Source of the DNA: Treponema brennaborense
GTDB taxonomy: Bacteria; Spirochaetota; Spirochaetia; Treponematales; Treponemataceae
Assembly (NCBI GenBank): GCA_023666275.1
Contig: JAMPCJ010000012.1
Span: 1 to 60,998, forward strand
Direction: 5' to 3'
Length of the DNA stretch: 60,998 nt
Position numbers and translations under genes: made by a program. The notes beneath the pieces are model-generated. The model was not told where the DNA came from, did no database searches, and saw only the letters and a list, made by a program, of their open reading frames with translations. This document shows positions 4,151-60,521 of this stretch, in pieces (position 1 is the stretch's first letter; each line of letters begins with the position of its first letter).

Positions 4151-5143
4151 TTAATAATAGTCATCACTGCCGTAATAAACCGTTTGCATTTCATCTTTTT
4201 CAATCCATTTTAAAACATTTTGATTAAATTCTTTTGCGGAAAAATATCCCATGGATTTTAAACGTTCATTCATGGCTGCGGTTTCCACAATGATGGGCAT
4301 GTTTCGTCCTGGCTTTACCGGAATTTCAAGCATCGGAATTTTTACGCCGAGCAAATCAACCGTGCACTGTATGGTTCCAAGTCGATCGTATACTTTATTG
4401 GAATTCCATTCTTCCATTTTAACGACGAGCTGAACTTCTTTCTGCTCCCTAATCGATCCGACTCCGTACAACTGCGCGATATTGATAACTCCAAGACCGC
4501 GGATTTCCATGTGATGATTTACTATTTTGCTTGCGCCCTGCCCCATAATTGCATTTCCATGCACACAGCGTATGTCAACGACATCATCCGCAACAAGACG
4601 GTGCCCGCGCTCGATAAGTTCAAGCGCTGTTTCGCTTTTGCCGACACCAGATTCGCCCATCAGAATGATGCCGATTCCATAGACATCAACTAAAACACCG
4701 TGGATTACTCTGTGCGGCGCAAAGATGCTTGAAAACACCCGCAACAATCTGCTCGACAATTCACTTGATTCAAGATCTGTCTGCAAAACCGGACAGCCGG
4801 CTTCATCCGCTATAGAAGAAAACTGTTCCGCAACTGCTAATCCGTGTGTAAAAATACAGCATGGAATTTGATACGTAAATAACTGACGGATAAATTCAAG
4901 CTTGTTTTCGTATATCAGTTTGTTCAAATACGCGACTTCGCCCCGCCCGAACAGCTGAACGCGCTGATGCGCGAATGATTCATAGAACCCGGACAATGCA
5001 AGCCCCGGACGGTTTAAATCCGGAACAGTAATTTCTCTGATTAACCCTTTTCTGCCGCTCAAACACCGGAGATTTAATGCATTGTGCCCTTTCAGATCCA
5101 AATCAAGAAGATCGAGTACTGTGAATTTTTTTTCCGTCGTCAT
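4151..5143 (-). CDS. hprK: HPr kinase/phosphorylase
   Basis: A 330-residue bifunctional enzyme that phosphorylates and dephosphorylates Ser46 of HPr. The P-loop GESGVGKS is at 163-170, the catalytic-base region IHGV includes H148, and the family signature MEIRGLGVI is at 212-220. The ptsH gene starts 23 bases after its stop. There is no Shine-Dalgarno sequence at the ATG. Instead a good promoter ends six bases before it (5150-5179), and an in-frame TGA at 5156-5158 excludes a longer protein, so the message is probably leaderless. In other bacteria this pair controls carbon metabolism without needing sugar transport. Confidence 0.93.
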   Translation of the reverse strand: MTTEKKFTVLDLLDLDLKGHNALNLRCLSGRKGLIREITVPDLNRPGLALSGFYESFAHQRVQLFGRGEVAYLNKLIYENKLEFIRQLFTYQIPCCIFTHGLAVAEQFSSIADEAGCPVLQTDLESSELSSRLLRVFSSIFAPHRVIHGVLVDVYGIGIILMGESGVGKSETALELIERGHRLVADDVVDIRCVHGNAIMGQGASKIVNHHMEIRGLGVINIAQLYGVGSIREQKEVQLVVKMEEWNSNKVYDRLGTIQCTVDLLGVKIPMLEIPVKPGRNMPIIVETAAMNERLKSMGYFSAKEFNQNVLKWIEKDEMQTVYYGSDDYY

Positions 5144-5149
5144 AAAGCT

Positions 5150-5179
5150 ACTATATCATGCAATATCAAATTTTTTCAA
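5150..5179 (-). promoter_or_regulatory. hprK promoter placed at the start codon
   Basis: On the minus strand, TTGAAA at 5179-5174, an 18-base spacer, then TATAGT at 5155-5150 with an upstream TG (extended -10). Six bases separate the -10 from the hprK ATG, so the expected transcription start is at or next to the A of ATG. Confidence 0.55.
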
Positions 5180-5274
5180 TAAAAGCAGAAAACTCAGGCT
5201 GAATATTTCCGCAGAGAATACGCAAGCAATTGTTTTCTGCCAAATACTGCATACATCATTCAGAAATATATGCG

Positions 5275-5565
5275 TCAGTTTTTCTGCTGAATCTTATCTT
5301 TTTCCTTTTTGATTTTAAGATCAAGCATGTCCATCAATTTATTAAGCGCAGCTGCAAAATCATATTCATCTGCCGAAACATGGGCAGACGCTCCCCAACG
5401 AAAATTCACGGTTGCATCGAATATATATTTTTTATCCTCTTTTATTTTTAAAAGCAAATCAACGATTAAATCGTCCGCATATTTTATACGTTCCAGTTTT
5501 TTATCAACAAGACTTTGCTGATCTTTGTCAATTTCAAAACCGACTGCATTTGTTGTAATATTCAT
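5275..5565 (-). CDS. hpf: Ribosome hibernation promoting factor (short HPF/RaiA type)
   Basis: A 96-residue protein of the short HPF/RaiA class, which binds the decoding region of idle 30S subunits. The beta-alpha-beta-beta-beta-alpha pattern is visible: MNITTNAVGFEI, the first helix (LVDKKLERIKY), central strands, then a helix rich in D and K (YDFAAALNKLMDMLDLKIKKEK). It lacks the dimerisation tail of long HPF. The ATG at 5565 has a perfect AGGAGG; the longer reading frame is not supported. It sits between rpoN and hprK, the usual position next to rpoN. Confidence 0.88.
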   Translation of the reverse strand: MNITTNAVGFEIDKDQQSLVDKKLERIKYADDLIVDLLLKIKEDKKYIFDATVNFRWGASAHVSADEYDFAAALNKLMDMLDLKIKKEKDKIQQKN

Positions 5566-5723
5566 ATAAGCCTCCTGCAAAAAATAACGCACGATAAATT
5601 CCGTGAAGCCGCCTGAAACAGCCGGCGCGCGGATTTTATTTTTTCTGCGTCTGTTTTCTAACATTTACAGTATAACATCGGGACGGATAAAAAGCAAAAT
5701 TTATATGTAGAATCCAGAAGTTT

Positions 5724-7184: not shown

Positions 7185-7288
7185 AAACACACTCCTGTTT
7201 ATATAATAACAATTCTATAGCTTTTTTTGAATTTATCCGCATCTCTGTTATTTGTTTTAAAGTATAGCATAAAATGCAGCGACTGCTG

Positions 7289-7294
7289 TATACT
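7289..7294 (+). promoter_or_regulatory. -10 hexamer directly before the DUF1015 gene
   Basis: TATACT ends six bases before the ATG at 7301. The codon one removed from the ATG is an in-frame TAA (7295-7297), and no ribosome binding site exists, so translation must start at 7301. No good -35 element is visible. Confidence 0.4.
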
Positions 7295-7300
7295 TAATAT

Positions 7301-8695
7301 ATGAACGCATTTAATACATACGGCATTGCCGTTCCGGAAATACTTTTGCCGGCAAAAAATATCGACTTGCAGGCATGGTCCGTTATTGCCTGCGACCAAT
7401 ACACGCAAGACAAAGATTATTGGAAACGTGCGGCAGATGCCGCAGCGGGAAAACCGTCTGCACTGAACATCATTCTGCCGGAAGTATATCTTAACTCTTC
7501 CGATAAACAGGAACGCATCAGCCGTATACAAAAAACAATGCGACAATATATCGACGCCGATATATTTCGGGAACCTTTCAAGGGATTTATATATGTGGAA
7601 AGAACGACCGAATACGGACGAAAACGCCGCGGTTTGATTGCCGCCGTTGATCTTGAAACATACGAATGGAAGCCGTTTTCAAAATCGCTGATACGCGCTA
7701 CAGAAGCAACAATAACGGAACGCATTCCGCCGAGAATGGATATACGGCGGGGCGCAGCGCTGGAATCGCCGCATATCATGCTTTTGATAAATGATCCGGG
7801 GAAAACACTTATAGAAGCAACCGGCGAAGCAATCCATAAAGAAAACGCATTTCCCCTTTACGACACGGATTTGATGCTTGAATCCGGACATATTACCGGC
7901 TGGGCCGTGCAGACAAAAGAACAAATTGCTTTAATAGAAAATGCACTTGCCGATATTGCGCGCAGCAACACCGATAAAGACGGTTCCGCTTTTATGTTTG
8001 CCGTGGGAGACGGAAATCATTCTCTTGCAACCGCAAAAGCTGTCTGGGACGAATTTAAACAAAAAAACGGCGGAACTGAAAATGCGGCAGGACAAATAAG
8101 CATTCCCTGCGGACTTGAAAATCATAACGCGCGGTTTGCACTTGTGGAAATTGTAAATTTACACGACAGCGGTTTAACATTCGAACCTATTCATCGTGTT
8201 TTGTTTAACGTGAATCCTGCTGCGCTGATTGACAATCTATGTGAAAAACTTAACGGCACAGTTTCGTTATTCAGCAGCGCAGAAGAATTGAAAAAGGCAG
8301 TTCTTTCTTCAAAAGCTTCTTTTGGATTTGTTTATGCAGATTCTGATTCTTCTGACGATATAAAATTTGCCTGCCTTGAAACACAAAATACTGCTTTAGC
8401 AGTCAGCAGATTGCAGCCGGCGTTGGATGCATTTTTAGCTTCCGCACCGGCAGAGCATGTATGCAAAGACGGTGTATGCCGCATGGTAAATCCCGAACTC
8501 GACTACGTCCATGGAAGCGAAGAAGTTTTCCGGCTCGGCGGAAAAAACGGCGCAACAGGCATTTTGCTCCCGCCGATTGCAAAAGACTGTTTTTTCAGCA
8601 CTATATCAGAAAACGGACCTTTGCCGCGCAAAAGCTTTTCAATGGGAGAAGCCAGCGAAAAACGTTTTTATCTGGAATGCCGAAAGTTATTTTAA
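7301..8695 (+). CDS. DUF1015 family protein
   Basis: A 464-residue protein of the DUF1015 family. The N-terminal AVPEILLPAKNIDLQAWSVIACDQYT matches the family's opening, and GDGNHSLATAK in the middle is its most conserved motif. Some archaeal relatives are linked to phosphoserine and serine metabolism, but no activity can be assigned here. It stands alone and is divergent from rpoN. The start is fixed by the in-frame TAA just upstream. The gene lacks a Shine-Dalgarno sequence and appears to be read from a leaderless message. Confidence 0.8.
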   Translation: MNAFNTYGIAVPEILLPAKNIDLQAWSVIACDQYTQDKDYWKRAADAAAGKPSALNIILPEVYLNSSDKQERISRIQKTMRQYIDADIFREPFKGFIYVERTTEYGRKRRGLIAAVDLETYEWKPFSKSLIRATEATITERIPPRMDIRRGAALESPHIMLLINDPGKTLIEATGEAIHKENAFPLYDTDLMLESGHITGWAVQTKEQIALIENALADIARSNTDKDGSAFMFAVGDGNHSLATAKAVWDEFKQKNGGTENAAGQISIPCGLENHNARFALVEIVNLHDSGLTFEPIHRVLFNVNPAALIDNLCEKLNGTVSLFSSAEELKKAVLSSKASFGFVYADSDSSDDIKFACLETQNTALAVSRLQPALDAFLASAPAEHVCKDGVCRMVNPELDYVHGSEEVFRLGGKNGATGILLPPIAKDCFFSTISENGPLPRKSFSMGEASEKRFYLECRKLF

Positions 8696-8719
8696 TTGAT
8701 GCGATTGATATTTTCCGTC

Positions 8720-12906: not shown

Positions 12907-12935
12907 TTGAATCGCTTTTTTGATTGCTATAGAAT
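12907..12935 (+). promoter_or_regulatory. Promoter of the XPB helicase gene
   Basis: TTGAAT (12907-12912), 17-base spacer, TAGAAT (12930-12935), then eight bases to the ATG at 12944. There is no Shine-Dalgarno sequence, so the message is probably leaderless or nearly so. Confidence 0.45.
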
Positions 12936-12943
12936 ATGCCGTT

Positions 12944-14701
12944 ATGCAAAATCTCAATCCGCTGATTGTCCAAAGCGACAGAACATTGCTGCTCGATGTT
13001 CACGCGCCGCAAGCAGAAAATTGCCGCAGCGCGCTTATTCCGTTTGCGGAACTCGAACGTTCGCCGGAACATTTGCATACATATCGGATTTCCGCAATTT
13101 CTCTTTGGAACGCGGCAAGCGCCGGCTTTTCACCGGAACAAGTTATATCCGTTTTGGAAACATATTCCAGATACAATATCCCGCAGAATGTTGTCCGCTG
13201 GATTCAGGAAACCGCCGGACGATTCGGCAAACTCAGAATTGTTCCTGTTCCGGCGGAAATTCGCGCTTCGGCAGAAAGCGGACAAAATGCCAATCCGGCA
13301 GATTCAAATTCGACAGAAGAATATTTATTATTGATTGCAGAAACCGCAGCGGTGTTCCGTGAAATTTCCGCACATAAAATAATGAAAAAATATCTTATTC
13401 CTCTCGGCGGTGCACAATACGGCTCCGGCGCGTTTCTTTTCAAATTGACAGACCGCGGAACAATCAAGCAGGAATTGATAAGCATCGGCTGGCCGGTAAA
13501 AGACGAAGTTCCGCTGAAAGACGGGGAACCGCTTGATATTTCGTTCAGACAAAAAACAAAATCGGGCGCGGTTTTTTCCGTACGTTCATATCAGCTTGAA
13601 GCTGCAAAATCACTCGTCGGCAAGAAAGAAGCCGGTTCCGGATTCGGAACAATTGTTCTCCCGTGCGGTTCCGGAAAAACAATTGTCGGCATGGCAATAA
13701 TGGAACTGCTGAAAACGAATACGCTGATACTCACCGTTAATATTTCGGCAGTGCATCAGTGGATAAACGAATTGCTTGACAAAACAACGCTGAATCCGGA
13801 ACAAATCGGAGAATACAGCGGCGCAGAAAAAAATATCCGTCCGGTTACTGTGGCAACATATCAAATCTTAACCTGGCGGGCGGATAAAAACGGATCGTAT
13901 CCGCATTTTCAATTGTTCCGAGAACATCCGTGGGGGCTTATCATTTACGATGAAGTTCACTTGCTGCCCGCGCCGGTGTTCCGTGTTACCGCGGAACTGC
14001 AGGCAGTGCGGCGCGCAGGACTGACTGCAACTCTTGTACGGGAAGACGGCTGCGAAAAGTTTGTCTTCAGCCTTGTCGGTCCCAAACGCTACGATGTTCC
14101 ATGGAAAGAACTGGAAATGTCCGGCTGGATTGCCGAGGCGGAATGCACGGAAATCCGAGTTGATTTCGACGAAGAAACAGAACTTTTATACGCCGTTTCC
14201 GATCCGACCGCAAAATACAGAATTGCAAGTGAAAATCCTTTGAAAAATCCGGCAGTAAAAAAACTTGTTTCTTTATATCCCGACGACAAAATTTTGATTA
14301 TCGGACAATATCTGAAACAGCTTCAAAGCATTGCAAAACAGCTTGACATACCGCTTATCACCGGAAAAACGCAAAATTCGGAACGGGATATCATATACCA
14401 AAAATTTCGCGACGGAGAAATTCGAATACTCGCCGTTTCAAAAATTGCCAATTTTGCAATTGATCTTCCCGATGCGTCCATGGCAATTCAAATATCGGGA
14501 ACATTCGGCAGCAGACAAGAAGAAGCACAAAGACTCGGAAGAATTCTTCGTCCCAAAAAACGCGCGGCAAAATTTTTTACGCTGATAACACGCAATACTG
14601 CGGAAGAAGATTTCGCATCAAACCGGCAGAAATTTCTCGCAGAACAAGGCTATGCTTACCGCATAATCAGATCGATAGACGAACTGGATAATTTACTGTA
14701 A
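12944..14701 (+). CDS. Bacterial XPB-type DNA helicase
   Basis: A 585-residue superfamily 2 helicase of the XPB (ERCC3/RAD25) type. An N-terminal XPB-associated domain (about residues 1-190) precedes the motor core. Motif I is LPCGSGKT, motif II is the DEVH box (IYDEVHLLPAPVF), and the XPB-specific RED motif is present as REDG shortly after the TAT motif (GLTATLV). Motif VI reads QRLGRILRPK. In eukaryotes XPB opens DNA in repair and initiation; in bacteria the role is less clear. The partner gene begins two bases after the stop. A TTG at 12920 could extend the protein by eight residues, but nothing supports it. Confidence 0.88.
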   Translation: MQNLNPLIVQSDRTLLLDVHAPQAENCRSALIPFAELERSPEHLHTYRISAISLWNAASAGFSPEQVISVLETYSRYNIPQNVVRWIQETAGRFGKLRIVPVPAEIRASAESGQNANPADSNSTEEYLLLIAETAAVFREISAHKIMKKYLIPLGGAQYGSGAFLFKLTDRGTIKQELISIGWPVKDEVPLKDGEPLDISFRQKTKSGAVFSVRSYQLEAAKSLVGKKEAGSGFGTIVLPCGSGKTIVGMAIMELLKTNTLILTVNISAVHQWINELLDKTTLNPEQIGEYSGAEKNIRPVTVATYQILTWRADKNGSYPHFQLFREHPWGLIIYDEVHLLPAPVFRVTAELQAVRRAGLTATLVREDGCEKFVFSLVGPKRYDVPWKELEMSGWIAEAECTEIRVDFDEETELLYAVSDPTAKYRIASENPLKNPAVKKLVSLYPDDKILIIGQYLKQLQSIAKQLDIPLITGKTQNSERDIIYQKFRDGEIRILAVSKIANFAIDLPDASMAIQISGTFGSRQEEAQRLGRILRPKKRAAKFFTLITRNTAEEDFASNRQKFLAEQGYAYRIIRSIDELDNLL

Positions 14702-22194: not shown

Positions 22195-22223
22195 TTGACA
22201 GTGCCGATTTATGATTGTATATT
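22195..22223 (+). promoter_or_regulatory. Near-consensus ptsI promoter, leaderless
   Basis: TTGACA (22195-22200), a 17-base spacer and TATATT (22218-22223) match the housekeeping sigma consensus at 11 of 12 positions. Six bases separate it from the ATG at 22230, so the transcript should begin at the start codon. No Shine-Dalgarno sequence exists. Confidence 0.75.
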
Positions 22224-22230
22224 TATACAA
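22215..22230. promoter_or_regulatory. Palindrome over the ptsI -10 and start codon
   Basis: TTGTATA (22215-22221), TT, TATACAA (22224-22230): perfect seven-base arms covering the -10 element and ending on the A of ATG. A bound repressor would block the promoter. It may also be partly a by-product of the A+T-rich -10. Confidence 0.45.
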
Positions 22231-23873
22231 TGAAATCAATACGGGGAACTGCCGTTTCTCCCGGCATCGGAACAGGACTTGTAGTTTTCCATAAAAACTG
22301 CCGCAATTCGATTATTACCGCAAAACGAGTTTCAAAAGAACAGCATGAAGACGACTGGAAGCGGTTTATTTCTGCAATCAGCAAAACAAAGAAATATTTT
22401 CAATCTTTGCTGGATGCGGAAAACGACGAACAATCCGAAATTTTCAAAACGCATATTTTAATGCTTGAAGACACCGTATTTATTTCACAAGTTCAGCAAG
22501 CTTACAACTTGGATACATTCAATATCGAATATGTCATTCAGCAGCAGGCCGAAAGCATTGCAGGGAAACTGCGGGCGGCAAACGATACATATTTAAATGA
22601 TCGAGCCGCAGATATTCTCGATGTTTTCGGGAAAGTCATTCAGCTTATGCAGGGATATCCGCTGAATACGATTTCCGCTGTCACTTCCGGCACAATAATC
22701 GCGGCACAAACATTGCAAGTATCCGATGCTATCGGCTTGTTTCAAAAAAAAATTGCCGGACTTATTCTGGCAGAAGGCGGCATAAACAGCCATCTTGCAA
22801 TTCTTGCCCGTTCGTACAGCATTCCGACTGTTTTCGGCGTAACTGTTCCCAATCAAACAAAAGAAGCAATAATAGACGGAACAGAAGGCGTTGTTGTCTG
22901 TGATCCCGACAGTCAGACATCTATAAACTATCAGAAAAAAAAACAGCAAGGTATTCTGAAAAAAAAACAATTCCAGGAATCCGTCCGTCTGCCCGTAAAA
23001 ACAAAAGACGGCGTTTTGTTCCATTTATATGCAAATATCGGAACCGTGGAAGAAGCAATTATCGCATTAAAAGAAGGCGCCGAAGGAATAGGGCTTTTCC
23101 GCACGGAATTTTTGTTTATGCAGGCTGCGGAAAAACACGAAAAACTCGACGAAGACATGCAATTTAATGCTTATAAAGAAGTTCTGCAAATAATGAACGG
23201 ACGCTCCGTTATTATAAGAACGCTCGATGCCGGCGGAGATAAAATAATTTCGAAAAATCTTTCGGCGGCAGAAGAAAATCCTTTGCTTGGAAACCGCGGC
23301 ATTAGATTTTGTTTGTCGCACAAAGATATTTTCAAAACACAGCTGCGGGCGCTGATGCGGGCGGGATTACACGGAAACTTGAAAATTATGCTTCCGATGA
23401 TTTCCGATATAAATCAAATCGAAGAAACAAAAAATCTTATTGCCGAAATAACTGCCGAATTCGATGCCGAAAATATTTCATATAAAACCGATATTCCGAT
23501 CGGCATAATGGTAGAAACACCGGCAGCAGCTGTCCTTGCAGATTGTTTTGCGCAGAAATGCGATTTTTTTTCCATAGGGACAAACGATCTTACGCAATAC
23601 ACGCTTTCCGTTGACAGAGAAAATATTTTCGTTAACAATTTATTCAATGACTGCGACAAAGCTGTCATTCGTCTTATACAAAATGTCTATGATCATTCCG
23701 AAAAGGCGCATATTCCCATTTCGGTTTGCGGAGAAATAGCGGGTCGCCTCGACGGCATTCGGCATCTTGCGAAAATCGGCATCCGATCGCTCAGCATGAG
23801 TATTCATAATATTTCGGAAATAAGAGATTTAATCATATCTCACACGCTGGATGAATTATGCCGGCTCAATTAA
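22230..23873 (+). CDS. ptsI: Phosphoenolpyruvate--protein phosphotransferase (enzyme I)
   Basis: A 547-residue enzyme I that passes phosphate from phosphoenolpyruvate to His15 of HPr. The start MKSIRGTAVSPGIGTG is the family's N-terminus. The active-site histidine is H188 in GGINSHLAILAR. The C-terminal PEP-binding barrel has EGIGLFRTEFLFM, the GTNDLTQY motif and the catalytic cysteine in SVCGEIAG. It is separated from ptsH and hprK by 17 kb and leads an operon with der. The ATG is preceded by a promoter and no ribosome site, so the message is probably leaderless. Confidence 0.95.
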   Translation: MKSIRGTAVSPGIGTGLVVFHKNCRNSIITAKRVSKEQHEDDWKRFISAISKTKKYFQSLLDAENDEQSEIFKTHILMLEDTVFISQVQQAYNLDTFNIEYVIQQQAESIAGKLRAANDTYLNDRAADILDVFGKVIQLMQGYPLNTISAVTSGTIIAAQTLQVSDAIGLFQKKIAGLILAEGGINSHLAILARSYSIPTVFGVTVPNQTKEAIIDGTEGVVVCDPDSQTSINYQKKKQQGILKKKQFQESVRLPVKTKDGVLFHLYANIGTVEEAIIALKEGAEGIGLFRTEFLFMQAAEKHEKLDEDMQFNAYKEVLQIMNGRSVIIRTLDAGGDKIISKNLSAAEENPLLGNRGIRFCLSHKDIFKTQLRALMRAGLHGNLKIMLPMISDINQIEETKNLIAEITAEFDAENISYKTDIPIGIMVETPAAAVLADCFAQKCDFFSIGTNDLTQYTLSVDRENIFVNNLFNDCDKAVIRLIQNVYDHSEKAHIPISVCGEIAGRLDGIRHLAKIGIRSLSMSIHNISEIRDLIISHTLDELCRLN

Positions 23874-34352: not shown

Positions 34353-34427
34353 TTTTTTCCCTTATTTTTTATGAAAATAAATGATATATAATAATGATAG
34401 AAACGCGTGAAAATCAATATACTTATA

Positions 34428-34457
34428 TTGCAAAAAAAAGTAAAGTCAGCTTATAAT
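34428..34457 (+). promoter_or_regulatory. dnaA promoter placed at the start codon
   Basis: TTGCAA (34428-34433), 18-base spacer, TATAAT (34452-34457), then eight bases to the ATG. An in-frame TAA overlaps the -10 (34454-34456) and there is no ribosome binding site, so the dnaA message should carry a leader of at most about two bases. Confidence 0.65.
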
Positions 34458-34465
34458 TCGTTGCT

Positions 34466-35911
34466 ATGGGTAATTGGGATTACAGTACATTTTGGACAGA
34501 AGCGATAAAACAAATACAATCCGACTTTTCAAAACAATCAAGAGATCAAGAATTTAAAATATGGTTCAGTTCAATAAAATATATAAATTCAGACGAACTT
34601 GCTGTAAATATTTCCGTTCCTTCTAATTTTTATCAAGCGCAAATAAAACAGCGCGGATATGACAGCATCATACAAAACAAACTCAAAGAAATTTCAGGTC
34701 AAGATATAGTTGTTCGATTCATCGTTTTGCCTCAAAGCGAGCAAAATACCGAAAATTCGTCTAAGTCTTCAGATGAAGCAAAAATACATAACACAAAAAC
34801 CGGCGCACCTGAAAATTCAGATGAAAATCATTCCGCAGCTGTTCAAACCGGAATCAAAAACGATGCCGGGCATCCGCAGCTTCGAGCCGATTACACATTC
34901 GATTCATTTGTAAGCGGCGAAAACGCGTTTGCATATAATGCGGCGCAGGCTGTTGCGAAAAATCCCGGCTACGCATACAATCCGCTGCTGATATACGGCG
35001 GCGTCGGATTGGGAAAAACACATCTTATGCAGGCCATTGGAAATTTAGCTTATGCTGAATCGCAGTCATCAAATACAAAAAAAAATATAATTTACATAAC
35101 CGCAGAAACATTTACCAATGAATTTATTCAATCTATTCACTCTTCAAGTCAGACAAAATTCAAAAACAAGTACAGATCGGCAGACATACTGCTTATTGAT
35201 GACATACATTTTTTCCAAAACAAAGACGGAACTCAGGAAGAATTATTTCATACATTTAATGCTTTATATGATTCTTTTAAACAAATAGTATTTACCTGCG
35301 ACAGACCTATTTCGGAACTTAAAAATCTTACGGAAAGACTCCGCTCACGATTTGAACGCGGACTGAATGTCGATCTCCAAGTACCTCAGTACGAAACACG
35401 CCGTGCAATTCTTGAAAAAAAAATGAGCAAAAAAAATGTTCATATAAGCCCTGAAATAATAGACATTATTGCACAAAATGTTTCGACAAATGTCCGCGAT
35501 CTTGAAGCTTCGCTGACAAAAATAATAGCGTACACCGAACTTACGGAAAAAGAAGTTTCCGTCGAAAAAGCGCAGCAATTGCTCAGAGATATTTTCAACT
35601 CGCCGAAAACAGGAAATATTACAATTGACGATATCCAAAAAACTGTTGCAAATTATTATAATATTTCGTTTTCCGACATAAAAAGCAAAAAACGGTCAAA
35701 AAACATACTTTTTCCGAGACAGCTTGCCATGTATATTGCAAGACAAATTACGGAATTTTCATTAACAGAACTCGGCGCGGAATTCGGCGGAAAAGATCAT
35801 ACAACAGTTATGCATTCAATCGAAAAAATAGAAGAAACACTTCAAACAGATATAACTCTTGAAAATACGCTGCAAACACTGATACGTTCAATCAAAGAAA
35901 TTAAAAAATAA
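34466..35911 (+). CDS. dnaA: Chromosomal replication initiator DnaA
   Basis: A 481-residue initiator. Domain I is at the N-terminus, a low-complexity linker rich in S, E and N spans about 90-140, and the AAA+ core has Walker A GGVGLGKT at 178-185 and Walker B LLIDDIHFF. The C-terminal DNA-binding domain ends with the DnaA signature GKDHTTVMHS. The start at 34466 is fixed by an in-frame TAA at 34454-34456. No ribosome site is present. It is followed by the oriC-like region and dnaN. Confidence 0.97.
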   Translation: MGNWDYSTFWTEAIKQIQSDFSKQSRDQEFKIWFSSIKYINSDELAVNISVPSNFYQAQIKQRGYDSIIQNKLKEISGQDIVVRFIVLPQSEQNTENSSKSSDEAKIHNTKTGAPENSDENHSAAVQTGIKNDAGHPQLRADYTFDSFVSGENAFAYNAAQAVAKNPGYAYNPLLIYGGVGLGKTHLMQAIGNLAYAESQSSNTKKNIIYITAETFTNEFIQSIHSSSQTKFKNKYRSADILLIDDIHFFQNKDGTQEELFHTFNALYDSFKQIVFTCDRPISELKNLTERLRSRFERGLNVDLQVPQYETRRAILEKKMSKKNVHISPEIIDIIAQNVSTNVRDLEASLTKIIAYTELTEKEVSVEKAQQLLRDIFNSPKTGNITIDDIQKTVANYYNISFSDIKSKKRSKNILFPRQLAMYIARQITEFSLTELGAEFGGKDHTTVMHSIEKIEETLQTDITLENTLQTLIRSIKEIKK

Positions 35912-36134
35912 TTTCGAAAACCTGTGCAAAACATGATAGAATAATGTGTGAAATTTGTGTACAATAAAATTACATGTGAAAATGTGCAAAAACCATATAA
36001 AAAAACTGCATGTTTTCAATATAGATTATTTTTTATACTGCAAATAAATAAACTGTATTTACATATTTCCACATGTATTACTGCTATTATTATTGTTATA
36101 TATAATATATTATAAAAACCATAAAGGAGAAATC
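35912..36134. other. Probable oriC between dnaA and dnaN
   Basis: This 223-base gap holds two exact matches to the DnaA-box form TGTGNAWAA (TGTGCAAAA at 35923-35931 and 35983-35991). Three more have one mismatch (35956-35964, 35975-35983, and ATTTCCACA at 36065-36073 on the other strand). An almost pure A+T stretch at about 36083-36120 could be the unwinding element. Genes diverge on both sides of this region. Assignment is by motif and context; start of replication has not been shown. Confidence 0.65.
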
Positions 36135-37238
36135 ATGAAATTCACTTTTGATAAAGACGCAATGACAAAAGAAATAGCAATTGCGCAGGAAATAATTTCC
36201 ACGAAAAATGCTCTTTCGATTCTTTCGAATGTACTTTTTATCGCAGAAGAAAATACATTGACAATTAAAGCAACAGACATAAAAGTGAATTTTGAAACAA
36301 AACTTCCCGTGGAAGTTCTTGAACCCGGAACCACAACTATATTCTGTGACAAATTTATGGGAATTCTGAATTCTTTGCCTTCCGGAGAAATAGAATTTTC
36401 CCAAAAAGATATAAAAGTAACTATTACGCCGACAGCAAAAAAAGTAAATTTCCAGCTGAAAAGCATGGCAAGCGATAAATTTCCCGAATTCTCATCCGCA
36501 GAAAATGTCCCGTATTTTGAAATTCCATCTTCCGAATTCAAAGAAATGATTACACAGACAATTTTTGCCGTATCCGATGACGAAACTCGGTTTTTCATGA
36601 ACGGCGTATATTTCGAAAAAAAAGACGAAAATCTCATACTTGTTTCCACAGACGGCCGCCGTCTTGCTTACATAGAAAAACCGCTTTGCCAGGGGATAAA
36701 CGATTTTTCTCCTGCGATTGTCCCGACGAAAATATTAAACATCATACTGAAAAGAGCTCCGTCTGAAGGAAATATAGCAATAGCTATCGTCGAAAAAATG
36801 ATTTTCTTTAAATTCGGAAATTACCAATTTACATCTGTTCTTATTGACGGACAATTTCCGAATTACCGCCGGGTAATCCCCGAAAAACAAGATTCGTTTT
36901 TCGAAGTTGAAAAGACAGATTTATTCGACGCTTTGAAGCGTGTAGGCTTGCTCGTCGAACAAAAATCTCACAGAGTATATTTTACGTTGACTCCGGGCAT
37001 ACTGACGATTACAGCGCAGGAATCGGATATAGGAACCGCAAAAGAAGAAATTCCCTGCAAATATGACGGCGAAGACACGGTTATAGCTTTCAATTATTTG
37101 TATATCGAAGAGCCGATGAAAGTTATAAAAACAGATAGGTTAAAATTCGAATTTTCGGGGCAAATGAAAGCTGTTACATTTAAACCGGAACCTGCTTCTG
37201 ATTTTTTTCATATCATAATGCCCATGCAAATGGAATAG
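36135..37238 (+). CDS. dnaN: DNA polymerase III sliding clamp (beta subunit)
   Basis: A 367-residue sliding clamp, with the three-domain beta pattern and the C-terminal region that ends in HIIMPMQ, matching the family's conserved MPMR/MPM end. It gives processivity to DNA polymerase III and is loaded by a complex including HolA. The start at 36135 has AAAGGAGA. RecF begins nine bases downstream. Confidence 0.96.
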   Translation: MKFTFDKDAMTKEIAIAQEIISTKNALSILSNVLFIAEENTLTIKATDIKVNFETKLPVEVLEPGTTTIFCDKFMGILNSLPSGEIEFSQKDIKVTITPTAKKVNFQLKSMASDKFPEFSSAENVPYFEIPSSEFKEMITQTIFAVSDDETRFFMNGVYFEKKDENLILVSTDGRRLAYIEKPLCQGINDFSPAIVPTKILNIILKRAPSEGNIAIAIVEKMIFFKFGNYQFTSVLIDGQFPNYRRVIPEKQDSFFEVEKTDLFDALKRVGLLVEQKSHRVYFTLTPGILTITAQESDIGTAKEEIPCKYDGEDTVIAFNYLYIEEPMKVIKTDRLKFEFSGQMKAVTFKPEPASDFFHIIMPMQME

Positions 37239-37247
37239 CAGATTGAA

Positions 37248-38324
37248 GTGCCGTTTCTTTCAATTTCGCTGCAAAATGTAAGAAATATTGAAGACTGTAC
37301 AATAGATCTTCTTGCAAAAGAAGTTTTTTTTGTCGGAAAAAACGGACAGGGAAAAACCAACTTGCTTGAAAGTTTGTACATATCCGCATACGGAACGTCC
37401 TTTAAAACGCATTCCGACAATGAAATTGTGAAAACAGGACAAAGTAGCTATAAAATACGCAATTTTTTCAGAAATAATTCGGAAAAATGCGACATTGTAA
37501 CAGTTTCGTATGAAAAAAACAAAAAGCGCATTGAAAAAAACGGAAAAAAAATAATCGACAGAAAAGAATTGATTTCCACGATTCCGTGTGTTTTGTTTTG
37601 CCATGAAGATATAGGATTTGCAAACGGAGAACCGGAAAAACGCCGTTTTTTTATAGATCAGTCATTATCCATGTATGATATTGTATATCTTGATACACTC
37701 AGAAAATATAAACGTGCGCTTAAAACAAGAAATCAGCTTTTAAAAGAAAAAAACTACGAAATGGTAGATATATACGATACGCCGCTTTTGGATACGGGAA
37801 TTGAAATAGTAAAAAAACGGCAATTGGCTGTTTTTCAATTTAATGCAATTTTCGGAAAATTATATGAAACCATAACAGGCATATCAAACGTAACTATATC
37901 GTACGAATCTTCATGGAAAGACAAAAATCGGGACGAAATAGCTGATATTCTTAATGAAAAACGCGAAGCTGATAAAATCATGGGTACTACAATGAGCGGT
38001 CCGCACAGGGATAAAATTATATTCACAAGAAATAAAAAATTATTTATACCGACTGCTTCAACCGGTCAGATCAGACTTGTTTCTATATTACTTCGTGTAT
38101 CTCAGGCAATGTACTATTCCCAATTAACGGGAAAGAAACCTGTTTTGCTTATGGATGATGTTCTTTTGGAACTTGATCCTGAAAAAAAAGAAAAAGTTAT
38201 TTCCGTTCTTCCCGAATATGATCAGCTTTTTTGTACTTTTTTGCCGGAAGAACCGTATTCAAGATATTGCCGCGCAAATACGCGTGTTTATTTTGTGGAA
38301 AAGGGAAAATTCGTATCGAAGTAA
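37248..38324 (+). CDS. recF: DNA replication and repair protein RecF
   Basis: A 358-residue SMC-like ATPase that helps load RecA at gaps. Walker A GKNGQGKTNLLES, the signature STGQIRLVSILLR and Walker B PVLLMDDVLLELD are present. The first codon is GTG at 37248, nine bases after the dnaN stop. The end overlaps no other gene; the DUF721 gene starts 10 bases later. Confidence 0.95.
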   Translation: MPFLSISLQNVRNIEDCTIDLLAKEVFFVGKNGQGKTNLLESLYISAYGTSFKTHSDNEIVKTGQSSYKIRNFFRNNSEKCDIVTVSYEKNKKRIEKNGKKIIDRKELISTIPCVLFCHEDIGFANGEPEKRRFFIDQSLSMYDIVYLDTLRKYKRALKTRNQLLKEKNYEMVDIYDTPLLDTGIEIVKKRQLAVFQFNAIFGKLYETITGISNVTISYESSWKDKNRDEIADILNEKREADKIMGTTMSGPHRDKIIFTRNKKLFIPTASTGQIRLVSILLRVSQAMYYSQLTGKKPVLLMDDVLLELDPEKKEKVISVLPEYDQLFCTFLPEEPYSRYCRANTRVYFVEKGKFVSK

Positions 38325-44019: not shown

Positions 44020-44811
44020 TTCGGATAAGCGGCTCAATTCGTATAAAATAACGGATGCTGCTTGTGCTACGTTCAAACTGTCGATATTTTGACACGGCGA
44101 CGGAATTTGAAAAAGATGATCGCATAAATGTTTTATCTCGTTTGAAATTCCGTTTTCTTCGTTGCCGAGAATTATAAAAACCGCTTTTTTGTTATCTGTT
44201 GTCTGTTGTTTTTTTTCCGATTTTTCCGAAAATATTTTTTTGAGTTCCGCAACAGGCACAGAAGAATGCGGATCGGTTCCGATTATAATCATTTTTTTCT
44301 GCATGTCGGAAAGAAAATGCGAAAGCGACGAAACAGAATAAATGGAAACGTATTCCATTCCTCCTTGAGCTACGCGGTATGCGCTGGTTGTTATCAATGA
44401 TTGACTTTCATCACGGGGAATAACAATATTGCGGATATTAAAGAACGCAGCACTGCGGACGATTGCGCCGAAATTATTTGCATTGCCGATACGATCCAAA
44501 ATAATGCCGGATTCGCCGTTTTGGATCCATTTTTCTGCGGCAGAAGAAGTGAGATGGGGGATTTCCGGATACGAAATCATTGCAACGACGCCTTGGTGAT
44601 GAGTGCTTCCGCATAATTTTTCGAGTTCAAAAGAATTTGTTTGGTTGTAGATCGCTTTCCGCATTGCCATTTTTTTGCATAAGCCGCCGAATAACGGAGC
44701 TTTTTCTGCGGTAAAATAAAGCCGCCGGATATTTTCGGCATGATGTTTTTCGAATTCTTTTACTGCGGCAAAACCGCATATTGCAAGTTCATTGCGCAAT
44801 TTATTTTTCAT
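44017..44811 (-). CDS. TrmH-family RNA 2'-O-methyltransferase
   Basis: A 264-residue SPOUT methyltransferase. The three motifs are clear: NANNFGAIVRSA, LGNEENGIS and SLNVAQAASVILYE. An N-terminal domain precedes them (residues 1-90). It modifies ribose 2'-OH groups of rRNA or tRNA; the exact target is unknown. The ATG at 44811 has no ribosome site, and TATACT ends six bases upstream, so the message is probably leaderless. It is divergent from queH. Confidence 0.82.
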   Translation of the reverse strand: MKNKLRNELAICGFAAVKEFEKHHAENIRRLYFTAEKAPLFGGLCKKMAMRKAIYNQTNSFELEKLCGSTHHQGVVAMISYPEIPHLTSSAAEKWIQNGESGIILDRIGNANNFGAIVRSAAFFNIRNIVIPRDESQSLITTSAYRVAQGGMEYVSIYSVSSLSHFLSDMQKKMIIIGTDPHSSVPVAELKKIFSEKSEKKQQTTDNKKAVFIILGNEENGISNEIKHLCDHLFQIPSPCQNIDSLNVAQAASVILYELSRLSE

Positions 44812-44817
44812 GCAAAA

Positions 44818-44823
44818 AGTATA
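44818..44823 (-). promoter_or_regulatory. -10 hexamer at the trmH-family start
   Basis: TATACT on the minus strand (44823-44818) with six bases (TTTTGC) to the ATG at 44811. The -35 is weak (TTTTAT with 17-base spacing). Confidence 0.4.
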
Positions 44824-44882: not shown

Positions 44883-44891
44883 TGATATACT
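44883..44891 (+). promoter_or_regulatory. Extended -10 element before queH
   Basis: TGATATACT forms an extended -10 element. Nine bases separate it from the ATG at 44901 and no Shine-Dalgarno sequence exists, giving a leader of about three bases. Confidence 0.45.
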
Positions 44892-44900
44892 GACTGCATA

Positions 44901-45587
44901 ATGACAAAGCGAAATTACAACGCGCTTATGGAAAACGAAATAAGCAGGATTATCAGTTCAAAAAATTTTCAGGCGGGGATAAAACCGAAATTATTGCTGC
45001 ACGTGTGCTGTGCGCCATGCAGCTCATCCGTGCTTGAACGTCTTGTTCCCGTGTTTTCAATAGTTCTTTTTTATTACAATCCGAATATATATCCCGAAGC
45101 AGAATATTTGCGGCGGCTGAAAGAATTGAAAAAATATTGCGCGCAGGCAAATTTGTTTTTGCCGATTGCAGAAGAATTATATAATCCTGCGGAATATTAC
45201 GCTGCGGTAAAAACAGATGAAGAACCTGAACTGAAAGAAGAATGCGAATGCGGAGAACGCTGCCGCCGTTGTTATGAATTCCGAATAAAAAAGGCATATC
45301 AATATGCGGCAGAACACGAGTTTGATTATATAACAACGACGCTTTCCGTCAGTCCGTATAAAGACGCTTCAAAAATAAATGAAATAGGCAGAATCTTTTT
45401 TGAAAATGCTGCCGAACAAAAAAATGCGGAAAACGGCGGACATAAAAAAAATGTACGTTTTTTGTACGCCGATTTTAAGAAAAAAAATGGTTTTTTGAGA
45501 TCTCTGCAATTATCGGAACAATTCGGATTGTACCGCCAGGATTATTGCGGATGTGAATATTCAATCCGGAGAGAAAAAAATGTCTGA
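44901..45587 (+). CDS. queH: Epoxyqueuosine reductase QueH
   Basis: A 228-residue protein of the QueH (DUF208) type, which performs the last reduction to queuosine in tRNA. The iron-sulfur ligands are visible: HVCCAPCSS near residue 34, CECGERCRRC around 114-123, and DYCGCEYS near the end. It has the expected size. The ATG at 44901 lacks a ribosome site. It overlaps the argA start by eight bases. Confidence 0.92.
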   Translation: MTKRNYNALMENEISRIISSKNFQAGIKPKLLLHVCCAPCSSSVLERLVPVFSIVLFYYNPNIYPEAEYLRRLKELKKYCAQANLFLPIAEELYNPAEYYAAVKTDEEPELKEECECGERCRRCYEFRIKKAYQYAAEHEFDYITTTLSVSPYKDASKINEIGRIFFENAAEQKNAENGGHKKNVRFLYADFKKKNGFLRSLQLSEQFGLYRQDYCGCEYSIRREKNV

Positions 45588-49629: not shown

Positions 49630-50194
49630 TTGAGGAATTTTCCGGATTTTTTGCCGCAAGCCATTTCGAAAGCGCCGTGCGTGCGGAATCGAAAGCGAGA
49701 GGAAGCGCGTTTATGTCGTCCTGCGAGCGAACGGGCACGAAGCAGACATCTGCAATCTCGCTTTCCTGCGTGCGGATTTTTTTCAGCAAAGATTCCGCGG
49801 TTTCGTTCGGAAAAGATGCCGAGAAAAAAACATCGCAGGTGTGATATATAATATTTTTGTACGGATATATATTTGCCGCGCTGCATATATATGATATATG
49901 TTCCGGAATCAAACCGATTTCTTCCGTGCATTCCCGGATACAGCCCTGCTCAAGCGTTTCTCCTTGATCGACGAATCCTCCGGGAAGCGCAAGTTTTCCT
50001 TTTTGCGGTTCTTTTTTTCGCACAATCATGAGGATTTTTTCGTCTGATTCGATTATCAATCCGGTTGCCGCCGCGGTATTTTTATACAAATTAAAACCGC
50101 ATGACGGACATGTCCAATGTTTTTCTTTTGGAAAAAGGAGCGTTTTTTTGCCGCAATGCGGACAATACGGCATGGAAATATCGGAAAGCATCAT
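49622..50194 (-). CDS. NUDIX hydrolase with zinc ribbon, NudC-like
   Basis: A 190-residue protein. An N-terminal zinc ribbon (CPHC..CPSC, residues about 11-32) is followed by a NUDIX domain with a complete box (GFVDQGE..RECTEEIGL). NudC-type enzymes split NADH and remove NAD caps from RNA; the SQPWPFPxS motif of true NudC is absent, so the substrate is uncertain. ATG at 50194 is chosen: an upstream ATG at 50230 lies inside the apparent -35 (ATGACA). An adjacent ATG follows at 50191. Confidence 0.75.
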   Translation of the reverse strand: MMLSDISMPYCPHCGKKTLLFPKEKHWTCPSCGFNLYKNTAAATGLIIESDEKILMIVRKKEPQKGKLALPGGFVDQGETLEQGCIRECTEEIGLIPEHISYICSAANIYPYKNIIYHTCDVFFSASFPNETAESLLKKIRTQESEIADVCFVPVRSQDDINALPLAFDSARTALSKWLAAKNPENSSNE

Positions 50195-50200
50195 AATACA

Positions 50201-50230
50201 AGTATAACAAAAGCAGCGTACTTGTGTCAT
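50201..50230 (-). promoter_or_regulatory. Promoter of the NudC-like gene, leaderless
   Basis: ATGACA (50230-50225), 18-base spacer, TATACT (50206-50201) with an upstream TG (extended -10), then six bases to the ATG at 50194. This shows that the long reading frame beginning at 50230 is not the true gene start. Confidence 0.6.
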
Positions 50231-57404: not shown

Positions 57405-57405
57405 A

Positions 57406-57438: not shown

Positions 57439-57442
57439 TTCT

Positions 57443-57832
57443 TTATTTTTTTAAATCGTTTTTCTCGTACAGAATAAAAAATCGTTTATAGCGTGCCGAG
57501 CGTCCGTTGTCGAAAAGTTCCAGAGAATCTTCTTCGGTGTATAATCGGGATTTGAAATATCCGTGCTCGCGTGCAAATACGGCTACGGCATCGCGAATTG
57601 CGGTGTTGGCATCTCCGCGGTCAAAACTCGATCCGCCGTTTTTAAGCGTGTACGTAACGCGCAGAACGCCGGTTAAATCATTAAATGAAAAATCAATGTG
57701 CGCTCTGCCTGCTTCGGTAGAATACGATTTAAAACTGTACGGATCATCCGCCGCCGCATTTTGTGCGAAAACCGCCGTTCCGCAGAAAAAAAGGCATAAA
57801 GCAATAACCGAAAATAATGTTAGTTTCTTCAT
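57443..57832 (-). CDS. Small secreted hypothetical protein
   Basis: A 129-residue protein with a clear signal peptide cut after A23 (AVFA-QNA). The mature part has two beta-rich stretches (AHIDFSFNDLTGVLRVTYTL) and a C-terminal basic region (RSARYKRFFILYEK). No family is recognised. AGGAG precedes the ATG. It is probably periplasmic. Confidence 0.72.
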   Translation of the reverse strand: MKKLTLFSVIALCLFFCGTAVFAQNAAADDPYSFKSYSTEAGRAHIDFSFNDLTGVLRVTYTLKNGGSSFDRGDANTAIRDAVAVFAREHGYFKSRLYTEEDSLELFDNGRSARYKRFFILYEKNDLKK

Positions 57833-57993
57833 AATAAAACTCCTGTTTCAAATGTACTGAATTGTACTGAAATCCATTTTATATTTACTATACCGAAAAT
57901 TTTTCCGAACGTGAAGACAAAGATGCGCCGAACCGAAAATTTTTTTGCCGAACAATGTACGGCGGAAATCCGGCACCGCAGTCTGTCAATTGG

Positions 57994-58022
57994 TTGACGA
58001 AATATACAAAAGACCGTATCCT
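57994..58022 (+). promoter_or_regulatory. Promoter of the TPR gene, leaderless
   Basis: TTGACG (57994-57999), 17-base spacer, TATCCT (58017-58022), then seven bases to the ATG at 58030. No ribosome site is present. Confidence 0.55.
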
Positions 58023-58029
58023 TTGCTTC

Positions 58030-58701
58030 ATGAATGTTGAAACAAAATCCGGAAAATTTTTATCTGCCTGCGCCGCCGCGCTTCTTTCGTGCGCCGTGTG
58101 TTTTTCCGCAGAAGACAACAGCAAGGCTGCTCCTGTATATACGCAGGCGCGTCAGCTCGAACTTTCCGGAAAGACAGCCGAAGCGGCAAAAGTATATCAG
58201 CAGTCGGCGGATATTGCCCGCGGAGAAATCGCGGCGGATTCCAAAAATGCCGACGCATATTCCGTGCTGGGCTGGGCGCTGCTCCGTCTTCAGCGATATG
58301 CGGAAGCCGAACGCATATCAAGGGAAGGGCTGAAATCCGCGCCGAATGATGTGCGGATTATAGAAACGCTCGGCGAGGCATGTTTTTATACCGACAAATA
58401 TACCGATTCTTTGGCGTTTTTCGAGCGCTATTTTGTGCTTGCCCCGAACGGCAACCGAGTTTCGACCGCGTATTTTTTTGTGGGAGAAATATACCGTCTT
58501 ACCGGAAAAACCGAACACGCGGATATAGCGTACTGCACGGCACTGAAAAAATCTCCGTATGTGTCTTTGTGGTGGTACAGGCTCGGCGTACTGCGCGCGG
58601 GCGCCGGAAAAGACAAAGACGCAAAATACGCATTCGAACAAGCCCTGAAACTGCGGCCGGATTATCCGGAAGCCGCCGCTGCACTGAAAAAACTTTCATA
58701 A
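58030..58701 (+). CDS. Exported TPR-repeat protein
   Basis: A 223-residue protein with a signal sequence, cut near residue 27 (CFSA-EDN) or possibly a lipoprotein at C21. At least four TPR units follow: AYSVLGWALLRLQRYAEAERISREGL, RIIETLGEACFYTDKYTDSLAFFERYF, AYFFVGEIYRLTGKTEHADIAYCTAL, WWYRLGVLRAGAGKDKDAKYAFEQALKL. It should act as a protein-binding scaffold in the periplasm; the partner is unknown. The start is fixed by a promoter that ends seven bases upstream and by the signal peptide. Confidence 0.83.
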   Translation: MNVETKSGKFLSACAAALLSCAVCFSAEDNSKAAPVYTQARQLELSGKTAEAAKVYQQSADIARGEIAADSKNADAYSVLGWALLRLQRYAEAERISREGLKSAPNDVRIIETLGEACFYTDKYTDSLAFFERYFVLAPNGNRVSTAYFFVGEIYRLTGKTEHADIAYCTALKKSPYVSLWWYRLGVLRAGAGKDKDAKYAFEQALKLRPDYPEAAAALKKLS

Positions 58702-58732
58702 TACGTGTTCCTTTGCGGCGATCCGGTGTGTC

Positions 58733-59863
58733 GTGAAACCGATAGATGCAGATAAATCTTATAATAATAATCTCATTCCGTTTTTGGCGGCGATGTGTTT
58801 TTTTCTGTCTGCCGTCGAATATGCCGTTCCGAAACCGCTTCCGTTTATGCGCATCGGTTTTGCCAATTTGCCGATTATATTTGCACTGTTCAAACTGCCT
58901 GCGCGCGATGCCGCACTTTTGGTGCTGCTGAAAGTTGCGGGGCAGGGAATTATCTCCGGAACGCTTTTTTCTTATGTATTTGTTTTTTCCGCGGCGGGTT
59001 CGATTTCATCGGCTTTGTGCATGTTTGCCGCGAAACGTTTAGGCGGAAAGCGAATAACAGCGGTCGGCATCGGACTTGCCGGCGCACTCGGCAATAATTG
59101 CGCGCAGATAGCCGTTGCGCGCATTTTGCTGTTCGGAGAAAGCACGCGCTATATTGCGCCGCTTTTGCTGGCATCGGGACTTGCAAGCGGACTTGCACTC
59201 GGCATATTCGCGCGGATTTTCATGCAAAAATCGGCATGGTTTTCCGAACTTGATGTTTTTGCCGCGGCTGATGAAAATCATTCCGTACAAATCCGCACGG
59301 AAAAACCCGAAGACACTGCCGACCGGCAAAAAAATTCAAAAGACAAATCCTCAAAAACCGCGGTATTGTGGTTTGTATGCGCGCTTGTTTTGATGCTGTT
59401 TTTTTTGTTCCAAAAAAAAGTGCAGGTGCAGGCTGTCTGTCTTGCGTTTTTTGCGCTGCTTGTTCGGATACGCAAAGGAAAAGTAAAAATCGTTTCGGCG
59501 TTTTTTTTGATCGGCGGAGTTGCATTTTTTGCGCTGCTCTCCCCGTTCGGCAAAGTGCTGTTTTATGCCGGAAAATTTCCGGTAACGGCAGGCGCGCTTG
59601 AAAGCGGTTTGCGCCGCGGCATTGTTCTTGTCGGCATGCTGTTTTTATCCCGTCTGGCAGTCGGTTCCGATCTGTATATACCCGGACGCGCCGGAAAATT
59701 TCTGCGGAAAGTATTTGCCTGCTTTAAGCTGCTGACGGCGGAACACATTCCGTTAAAACACGGAGCGATTATTTCCGCGCTCGACCGCCGTCTTGCGGAT
59801 GTTTGGCGCGCTGTCTGTCTGGATTTTTCGGATACGGATACAGACATAAAACCCGAATCGTGA
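58733..59863 (+). CDS. Gx transporter family protein with extra C-terminal membrane domain
   Basis: A 376-residue membrane protein. The first 165 residues match the Gx transporter (heptaprenyl diphosphate synthase component I-like) family, related to ECF-type S components: PFMRIGFANLPIIFALF, ALLVLLKVAGQGIISGTLFS, GALGNNCAQIAVA. A polar linker (about 175-205) is followed by further membrane spans and a cytoplasmic end (ALESGLRRGIVLVGMLFLSRLAVG) resembling a T component. Start is GTG. Substrate is not known. Confidence 0.72.
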   Translation: MKPIDADKSYNNNLIPFLAAMCFFLSAVEYAVPKPLPFMRIGFANLPIIFALFKLPARDAALLVLLKVAGQGIISGTLFSYVFVFSAAGSISSALCMFAAKRLGGKRITAVGIGLAGALGNNCAQIAVARILLFGESTRYIAPLLLASGLASGLALGIFARIFMQKSAWFSELDVFAAADENHSVQIRTEKPEDTADRQKNSKDKSSKTAVLWFVCALVLMLFFLFQKKVQVQAVCLAFFALLVRIRKGKVKIVSAFFLIGGVAFFALLSPFGKVLFYAGKFPVTAGALESGLRRGIVLVGMLFLSRLAVGSDLYIPGRAGKFLRKVFACFKLLTAEHIPLKHGAIISALDRRLADVWRAVCLDFSDTDTDIKPES

Positions 59864-59937
59864 ACAGCGGATTATAAAGCGAATTTTTCAACGGCGCAGA
59901 ATGCGGAACATGCCTTGTTTCGGCGGCAGTTTTCCGA

Positions 59938-60486
59938 TTAACATCCGCCGCAGCCGCAGCACCCGCGGGAACAGCCGCCTGCCGCTTCGGAACTGTCCGA
60001 ACATCCGCCGCAGGAACCGCCGCAGCCGCGCGATAAACCGAACTGCAATTCGTTTTCCGTTGCGTCGCGGATCCCCGAAATTTTTATATCAAAAGTCAGC
60101 GTTTTTCCCGCAAGCGGATGATTTGCGTCGACAATGACCGTTGCGTCTTTCACTTCCGCAATTGTTACCAATTGCGAACCGGCATCGTTTTCGGCTTCAA
60201 ACTGCATTCCGGCTTCTATTTCAGCATCCGCCGGAAAATGACTTTTCGGCACTTCCGCGATAAGTTCCTGACTGCGTTCGCCGTATGCGTCCTTCGGCGT
60301 GAGCGTAACGGAAAAACTCTCGCCGTCTTGTTTTCCGTCCAATTCTTTTTCAAGCGCGGGAATCAAACTGTTTTGTCCGTGAATATAATCGATTGGTCCG
60401 GAAATTTCCGTCGAATCGAGGATTTCTCCGCCGCTGTCTTTCAGCGTGTATTCAAGCGACACGACTTTGTTGTCTGCGATTTTCAT
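59938..60486 (-). CDS. slyD: SlyD-type FKBP peptidyl-prolyl isomerase with cysteine-rich tail
   Basis: A 182-residue FKBP of the SlyD type: FKBP core (VVSLEYTLKD..GEILDSTEISGPIDYIHG) with the inserted IF domain (TPKDAYGERSQELIAEVPKSHF). SlyD usually ends in histidines that bind nickel. Here the last 30 residues instead hold eleven cysteines among G and S. ATG at 60486 is preferred over the frame to 60630, since a promoter ends six bases before it. There is no ribosome site. Confidence 0.85.
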   Translation of the reverse strand: MKIADNKVVSLEYTLKDSGGEILDSTEISGPIDYIHGQNSLIPALEKELDGKQDGESFSVTLTPKDAYGERSQELIAEVPKSHFPADAEIEAGMQFEAENDAGSQLVTIAEVKDATVIVDANHPLAGKTLTFDIKISGIRDATENELQFGLSRGCGGSCGGCSDSSEAAGGCSRGCCGCGGC

Positions 60487-60492
60487 TACAGG

Positions 60493-60521
60493 AATATACA
60501 CTTTTGCGCAAAATACGGCAA
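60493..60521 (-). promoter_or_regulatory. slyD promoter, leaderless
   Basis: TTGCCG (60521-60516), 17-base spacer, TATATT (60498-60493), then six bases to the ATG at 60486. No ribosome site is present. Confidence 0.5.

Follow-up and report, generated by a model that had tools for sequence, protein, structure and literature searches.

Are genes on this stretch of Treponema brennaborense DNA read from messenger RNAs (mRNAs) that begin at the start codon itself, and does the rest of the genome share this mode of starting? The window, by which we mean the whole stretch of 60,998 nucleotides (nt), is one contig of a 2.35 Mb genome that comprises 18 contigs and is 97.7% complete. A sequence-only reading had proposed that ten of its genes are leaderless, with a -10 hexamer just ahead of the ATG and no Shine-Dalgarno (SD) sequence, and that they coexist with genes of the SD type. 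Judged from the DNA, the genome very probably uses two start modes: most genes would be SD-led, and a minority would be leaderless, with a sigma-70-type promoter placed at the start codon. Coexistence of the two modes is supported by a spacing peak specific to ATG, by a -35 match on which no selection had been made, by avoidance of SD sequences and by conservation in relatives.

The genome-wide count, a check named beforehand, was made on a sample of 714,711 bases (window included) with 514 called genes. A fixed list of ten TATAAT-like hexamers was used, spacing was taken as the number of bases from the end of the -10 hexamer to the start codon, and 500 dinucleotide shuffles of the upstream sequence served as control. 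A listed hexamer stood 6-9 bases before the first ATG in 50 of 496 genes, as compared with 10.4 in the shuffles, none of which exceeded 20; outside the window the corresponding figures were 41 of 451 and 8.5. The excess of about 40 genes of 496 sets a floor, and hence at least about 8% of the genes would be leaderless by the strict hexamer. At a spacing of exactly 6, the hexamer was found for 25 of the 496 first ATGs, compared with a mean of 3.85 per spacing at 20-59. This peak would put position +1 on the A of the ATG. In-frame ATGs within the first 150 nt displayed it as well (34/951, background 6.83). The peak was absent at internal in-frame ATGs (4/3090, background 8.62), at out-of-frame ATGs (3/637, background 4.85) and at GTG (2/412) and TTG (5/625) codons.

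Features that had played no part in the selection accompany the hexamer. TTG lies at a gap of 16-18 ahead of the -10 hexamer in 24 of the 50 genes, 16 of them at exactly 17, and the mean is 1.03 for each of the other gaps. TGn directly precedes the hexamer in 20 of the 50, and none of them has an SD core, which is present in 103 of 495 genes overall. As a control, hexamers ahead of internal ATGs were inspected, and only 2 of 32 had TTG at gap 16-18. A mixture model likewise described a TATAAT class, in which the spacing is 6 and 93% of the starts are ATG. Its 81 genes at spacing 6-9 carried TTG at gaps 16-18 35 times, with 5.5 expected, and this TTG peak was absent from 342 SD genes. A divergent upstream neighbour was found for 58% of 74 genes called leaderless by the model vs 25% of 319 SD genes, a surplus that is expected if leaderless genes are the first of their transcription unit.

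The ten sites of the window are as follows, with gaps counted between the -35 and -10 elements.

5143..5179, minus strand: hprK promoter; -10 TATAGT at 5150-5155, spacing 6; -35 TTGAAA at 5174-5179, gap 18; start codon at 5143.
7289..7303, plus strand: DUF1015 promoter; -10 TATACT at 7289-7294, spacing 6; ATG at 7301; in-frame TAA at 7295-7297.
12907..12946, plus strand: XPB-like helicase promoter; -35 TTGAAT at 12907-12912, gap 17; -10 TAGAAT at 12930-12935; ATG at 12944, spacing 8.
22195..22232, plus strand: ptsI promoter; -35 TTGACA at 22195-22200, gap 17; -10 TATATT at 22218-22223; ATG at 22230, spacing 6.
34428..34468, plus strand: dnaA promoter; -35 TTGCAA at 34428-34433, gap 18; -10 TATAAT at 34452-34457; ATG at 34466, spacing 8; in-frame TAA at 34454-34456.
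44811..44823, minus strand: trmH-family gene; -10 TATACT at 44818-44823; ATG at 44811, spacing 6; mixture-model posterior 0.99.
44886..44903, plus strand: queH, a weak candidate; TATACT at 44886-44891; ATG at 44901, spacing 9; mixture-model posterior 0.39.
50194..50206, minus strand: NUDIX (NudC-like) gene; -10 TATACT at 50201-50206; ATG at 50194, spacing 6.
57994..58032, plus strand: TPR gene; -35 TTGACG at 57994-57999, gap 17; -10 TATCCT at 58017-58022; ATG at 58030, spacing 7.
60486..60521, minus strand: slyD; -35 TTGCCG at 60516-60521, gap 17; -10 TATATT at 60493-60498; ATG at 60486, spacing 6.

At all ten starts the -10-like hexamer is where it had been read, 6-9 bases ahead of the ATG, and none of the ten has any of seven SD words (AGGAG, GGAGG, GAGGT, AGGA, GGAG, GAGG, AAGG) 3-15 bases upstream. 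The in-frame stops quoted in the same reading (5156-5158 as well as the two in the list) are present. In queH and ptsI an in-frame stop lies 6 codons upstream; there is no close one for XPB (12 codons), trmH (17), nudC (25), slyD (53) and TPR (54). The neighbours cited as SD-type proved to be so, rpmH (38933) having AAGGAG and both hpf (start 5565) and mtnN (start 54268) having GCAGGAGG upstream. Pfam matches of the ten products are, in order, HPr kinase, DUF1015, ERCC3/XPB helicase, PEP-utilising enzyme (PtsI-like), DnaA, SpoU methylase, QueH, NUDIX, TPR and FKBP-type (SlyD-like). By the strict list, from which the TATCCT of TPR is absent, 9 of 45 window genes have a hexamer 6-9 bases before the first ATG, with about 1.9 expected (difference of shuffle means). 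Seven of the nine belong to the ten sites and two (51502 and 53467, both minus strand) do not; the count misses slyD, nudC and TPR, where the open reading frame has an in-frame ATG upstream of the start given here.

To what extent are these promoters kept in relatives? Since no other genome of the same genus was at hand, genomes of the same family were compared, up to 30 per gene; for dnaA, the nearest named relatives are spirochaete metagenome bins, including one Treponema, at 57-58% identity (best segment). A -10 hexamer was scored at 5-9 bases before the start, with 200 mononucleotide shuffles as control. Rows with no N-terminal match or fewer than 40 upstream bases were dropped (dnaA 1/29, ptsI 1/30, XPB 1/30, TPR 2/15). 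The hexamer was present in 27 of 28 relatives for dnaA (the best 30 of 139 matching genomes, more distant family members not being represented), 26 of 30 for hprK, 26 of 29 for ptsI, 25 of 27 for DUF1015 and 28 of 29 for XPB. SD-like sites numbered 0, 2, 1, 1 and 0, respectively, and the shuffles gave 1.1-1.4 expected matches for each gene. One dnaA row, L073, whose start had been set wrongly by the script, is counted as a miss, and the 29 ptsI rows still include two poor matches (L144, L145) and possibly paralogues among the others. The linker between hexamer and start varies in sequence and is kept in length: spacing is 8 in 27 of the 28 matching XPB relatives. For dnaA it is 6-8. Thus dnaA, hprK, ptsI, DUF1015 and the XPB-like helicase appear to form a core kept leaderless in nearly all relatives examined.

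AUG is generally regarded as the preferred start for leaderless translation. It is unusual, then, that seven ptsI orthologues (L130-L132, L134-L137) have the leaderless-type promoter before a GTG start. In DUF1015 orthologues (e.g. L183, L187, L193) a TATAGCATAAA-like stretch recurs near the expected -35 position, in place of TTGACA.

Several results weigh against a leaderless class as broad as the ten genes, or as constant as the core. In slyD the hexamer was found in 3 of 30 relatives and an SD-like site in 20 of 30; in nudC the figures were 4/19 and 9/19, in TPR 2/13 and 5/13, and in queH 2/29 and 9. TPR was scored on 15 of 30 loci and nudC on 19 of 30, those excluded being weaker or paralogous matches, and queH on 29 of 30, since one genome carried a second copy, which was excluded. 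No trmH was found next to queH in the 30 loci inspected, and the comparison covers the other nine genes. Of four 200-kb samples from relatives, only two had a clear excess of strict hexamers at 6-9 (13/144, expected 3.3; 15/136, expected 4.1); it was weak in a third (12/160 vs 8.8) and absent in a 1.14 Mb relative (2/130 vs 1.4), whose XPB orthologue (L232) still has TATAAT at spacing 8, ahead of GTG. In overlapping stretches, orthologues of 12 leaderless-called genes were leaderless in 5 cases, SD in 3 and neither in 4, and those of 38 SD-called genes were leaderless in 3, SD in 20 and neither in 15, too few pairs to decide. Lastly, on shuffled upstream sequences the mixture model still labelled 67-120 of 514 genes leaderless, although it then gave neither the TATAAT consensus nor the spacing-6 peak. 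Its counts are therefore unusable as a fraction, and the 25% that it had yielded was dropped; weight is given only to the consensus, to the peak in spacing and to the agreement at -35. Hence the list of ten stands in part. Five genes (the core) are robust, slyD, nudC, TPR and trmH are plausibly leaderless in this genome, the first three often being SD-led in relatives, and queH is doubtful, with its spacing of 9, its low posterior and its two matches in relatives.

The same genes were inspected in more distant spirochaetes. For dnaA, GGAG stands six bases before the ATG in L005-L008, which we take from their bin names to be termite-gut-type spirochaetes, and AGGAG stands three bases before it in L009, L010 and L012. 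GATAAT precedes the ATG by six bases in two Treponema that are more distant (L011, L014). For XPB, the L005-L008 genomes (L327-L329, L331/L338) keep TTGACT, with a weak -10 at spacing 7-8. Further XPB loci have TATAAT at 7 (L337), SD-like sites (L330, L332), TATAAT 11 bases off (L324, L335) or none of these (L326). Accordingly almost every family locus inspected would have a leaderless dnaA, and several spirochaetes farther away an SD-led one; the two patterns indicate that each gene has its own history.

From the promoter elements, their spacing, the absence of SD sequences and the conservation, all read directly from the DNA, we infer the precise position of the 5' end and the mode of ribosome binding. 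RNA polymerase with the main sigma factor would start at the A of the ATG or within about 3 bases of it, the -10 element ending 6 (up to 9) bases upstream. 70S ribosomes carrying initiator tRNA would then bind the 5'-terminal AUG directly, by analogy with the route that a review (PMC9031893) describes for leaderless mRNAs.

AT-rich upstream DNA could yield -10 look-alikes near starts by chance, the best of which were then picked. The hexamers were indeed chosen by eye, the consensus is short, and TPR and queH are seldom matched in relatives. Yet the shuffle tests, the sharp peak at spacing 6 seen for ATG alone, TTG at gap 16-18 in 24 of 50 genes and the conservation of five genes in 25-28 of 27-30 relatives make chance a very improbable account; it is refuted for the leaderless class and for the core, and may hold for queH. 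The start codons could also be misplaced, the true ones lying upstream or internally behind promoters with ordinary leaders. slyD, TPR, nudC, trmH, XPB and ptsI do have an in-frame alternative start codon upstream, and the mixture model preferred 57955 over 58030 for TPR. Against this, in-frame stops overlap or adjoin the -10 element in hprK, DUF1015, dnaA and queH, the ptsI stop lies 3 bases upstream of it, an in-frame stop comes at most 4 codons from the start in 24 of 30 XPB rows, and the alignments of core-gene orthologues begin at residues 1-9 in almost every row. Wrong starts as the general cause are hardly credible.

A closer competitor accepts the -10 elements as real and supposes mRNAs with leaders of about 2-10 nt, which would be initiated by 30S subunits independently of an SD sequence and not by the leaderless 70S route. 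Start sites usually fall 6-9 bases past the -10 element, and the spacings of 8 in XPB and 6-8 in dnaA suit such leaders; where the spacing is 7-9, a leader of 1-3 nt and no leader at all are equally likely, which tells against strict leaderlessness there. In Leptospira interrogans, differential RNA sequencing (dRNA-seq) gave about 440 mRNAs with leaders below 10 nt, half of them below 2 nt (PMC5243855). On the other hand, the commonest spacing, 6, puts +1 on the A of the ATG, and position -1 is often a pyrimidine (75% of 53 spacing-6 genes vs 57% of 342 SD genes). Short leaders are thus somewhat unlikely as the general explanation, and leaderless starts at the ATG remain the preferred reading.

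Is the leaderless class functionally distinct? Of 36 strict candidates outside the window, 30 were scanned; two crossed stretch ends with no reference, and four were omitted. The 30 are mostly enzymes of ordinary metabolism and of RNA and DNA upkeep, among them Tex, an RNase II-type protein, aspS, asnS, a DinG/YoaA-like helicase, an NFACT-domain (RqcH-like) protein, murE, aspartate kinase, ThiI, a release factor, a Dus enzyme and a KaiC-family ATPase. Regulators among them are two of LysR type and one CarD-type protein. Among thirty SD genes taken at random, five encode ribosomal proteins. The initiator gene dnaA belongs to the class as proposed, but that the class holds the "basic regulators" is not established; a regulator bias, for which there is a candidate list without an enrichment test, was rejected as unproven.

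In the actinobacterium Mycobacterium tuberculosis, leaderless and SD modes reportedly coexist as well, with leaderless use more extensive. Among spirochaetes, Leptospira belongs to another order than this genome. That leaderless genes occur in bacteria, Spirochaetes included, is already known from reports of their use (PMC3160421, PMC5243855, PMC9581028), the last of which cites 21.6% of bacterial species as predicted users; six Spirochaetes appear as table rows in PMC5397173. Zheng et al. 2011 (PMC3160421) describe TA-led genes, in which a -10-like TANNNT precedes the start codon by about 12 bp; they lack an SD sequence and tend to be promoter-proximal. The genes described here resemble these, as spacing 6 puts the first T of the -10 element at -12, SD sequences are lacking and a promoter-proximal tendency is seen. 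That study reports leaderless genes in 6 of 18 spirochaete genomes (mean 3.9%, range 1.8-6.9), with a higher share in information storage and processing and a lower one in translation genes; our value of at least about 8% was obtained by another method and is not strictly comparable with that mean. L. interrogans, likewise a spirochaete, has hundreds of mRNAs whose 5' ends lie at the start codon or no more than 10 nt away, but its start sites are experimental whereas ours are predicted from sequence, and that study found no promoter motif except sigma-54 elements, whereas sigma-70-type -35 and -10 boxes are plain here. Added here, and beyond the TA-led account as available, are the core conserved gene by gene within one family, its kept spacing and the switching between SD and leaderless modes. 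Among the literature matches listed, in which subscription papers are thinly covered, no Treponema start-site map or leaderless report was identified.

These results bear on annotation, since SD-based start-codon callers can misplace leaderless starts and promoter predictions that assume a leader miss such promoters. The five constant genes and the variable slyD, nudC and TPR form natural pairs for asking why some genes stay leaderless and others switch. Since dnaA would be leaderless in these genomes but SD-led in several spirochaetes farther away, it becomes testable whether the mode of translation is linked to the control of replication. Selection might act on the leaderless state itself in a core of control genes, namely dnaA for replication and hprK with ptsI for the control of sugar phosphotransfer. 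Their mRNAs would then be translated under conditions (70S monosomes, initiation-factor levels, stress) that favour leaderless messages, dnaA being also under a putative DNA-binding regulator that recognises AAAAAAGTAAAG. We consider this proposal unlikely; if true, replication and carbon control would be tied to the state of the ribosome.

The 12 bases AAAAAAGTAAAG, at 34434..34445 (plus strand) between the -35 and -10 elements of dnaA, are invariant across all 28 scored loci (the window's own plus L057-L072, L074-L083 and L085), as is the ATTG of the -35 element. The unscored locus L073 has AAAAAAGTAAAC, where the final base is different. The 11-mer AAAAAGTAAAG is found a single time in the own-genome sample, at the dnaA spacer, and AAAAAAGTAAAG was not seen in the 50 bases upstream of dnaA in L005-L016 and L019. 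Lying upstream of the predicted start, the element would act as DNA; that it is a regulator site is our guess. Cumulative GC skew turns at gyrB/dnaA, and the replication origin therefore probably lies there, within window positions 34000-38000.

The window holds additional leaderless candidates: 51502 (minus strand) with TATAAT at 8 and 53467 (minus strand) with TAGAAT at 6, for both of which the mixture model favoured other starts, and 11530 (minus strand), where TATTGT stands at 7 before a PHP-domain gene.

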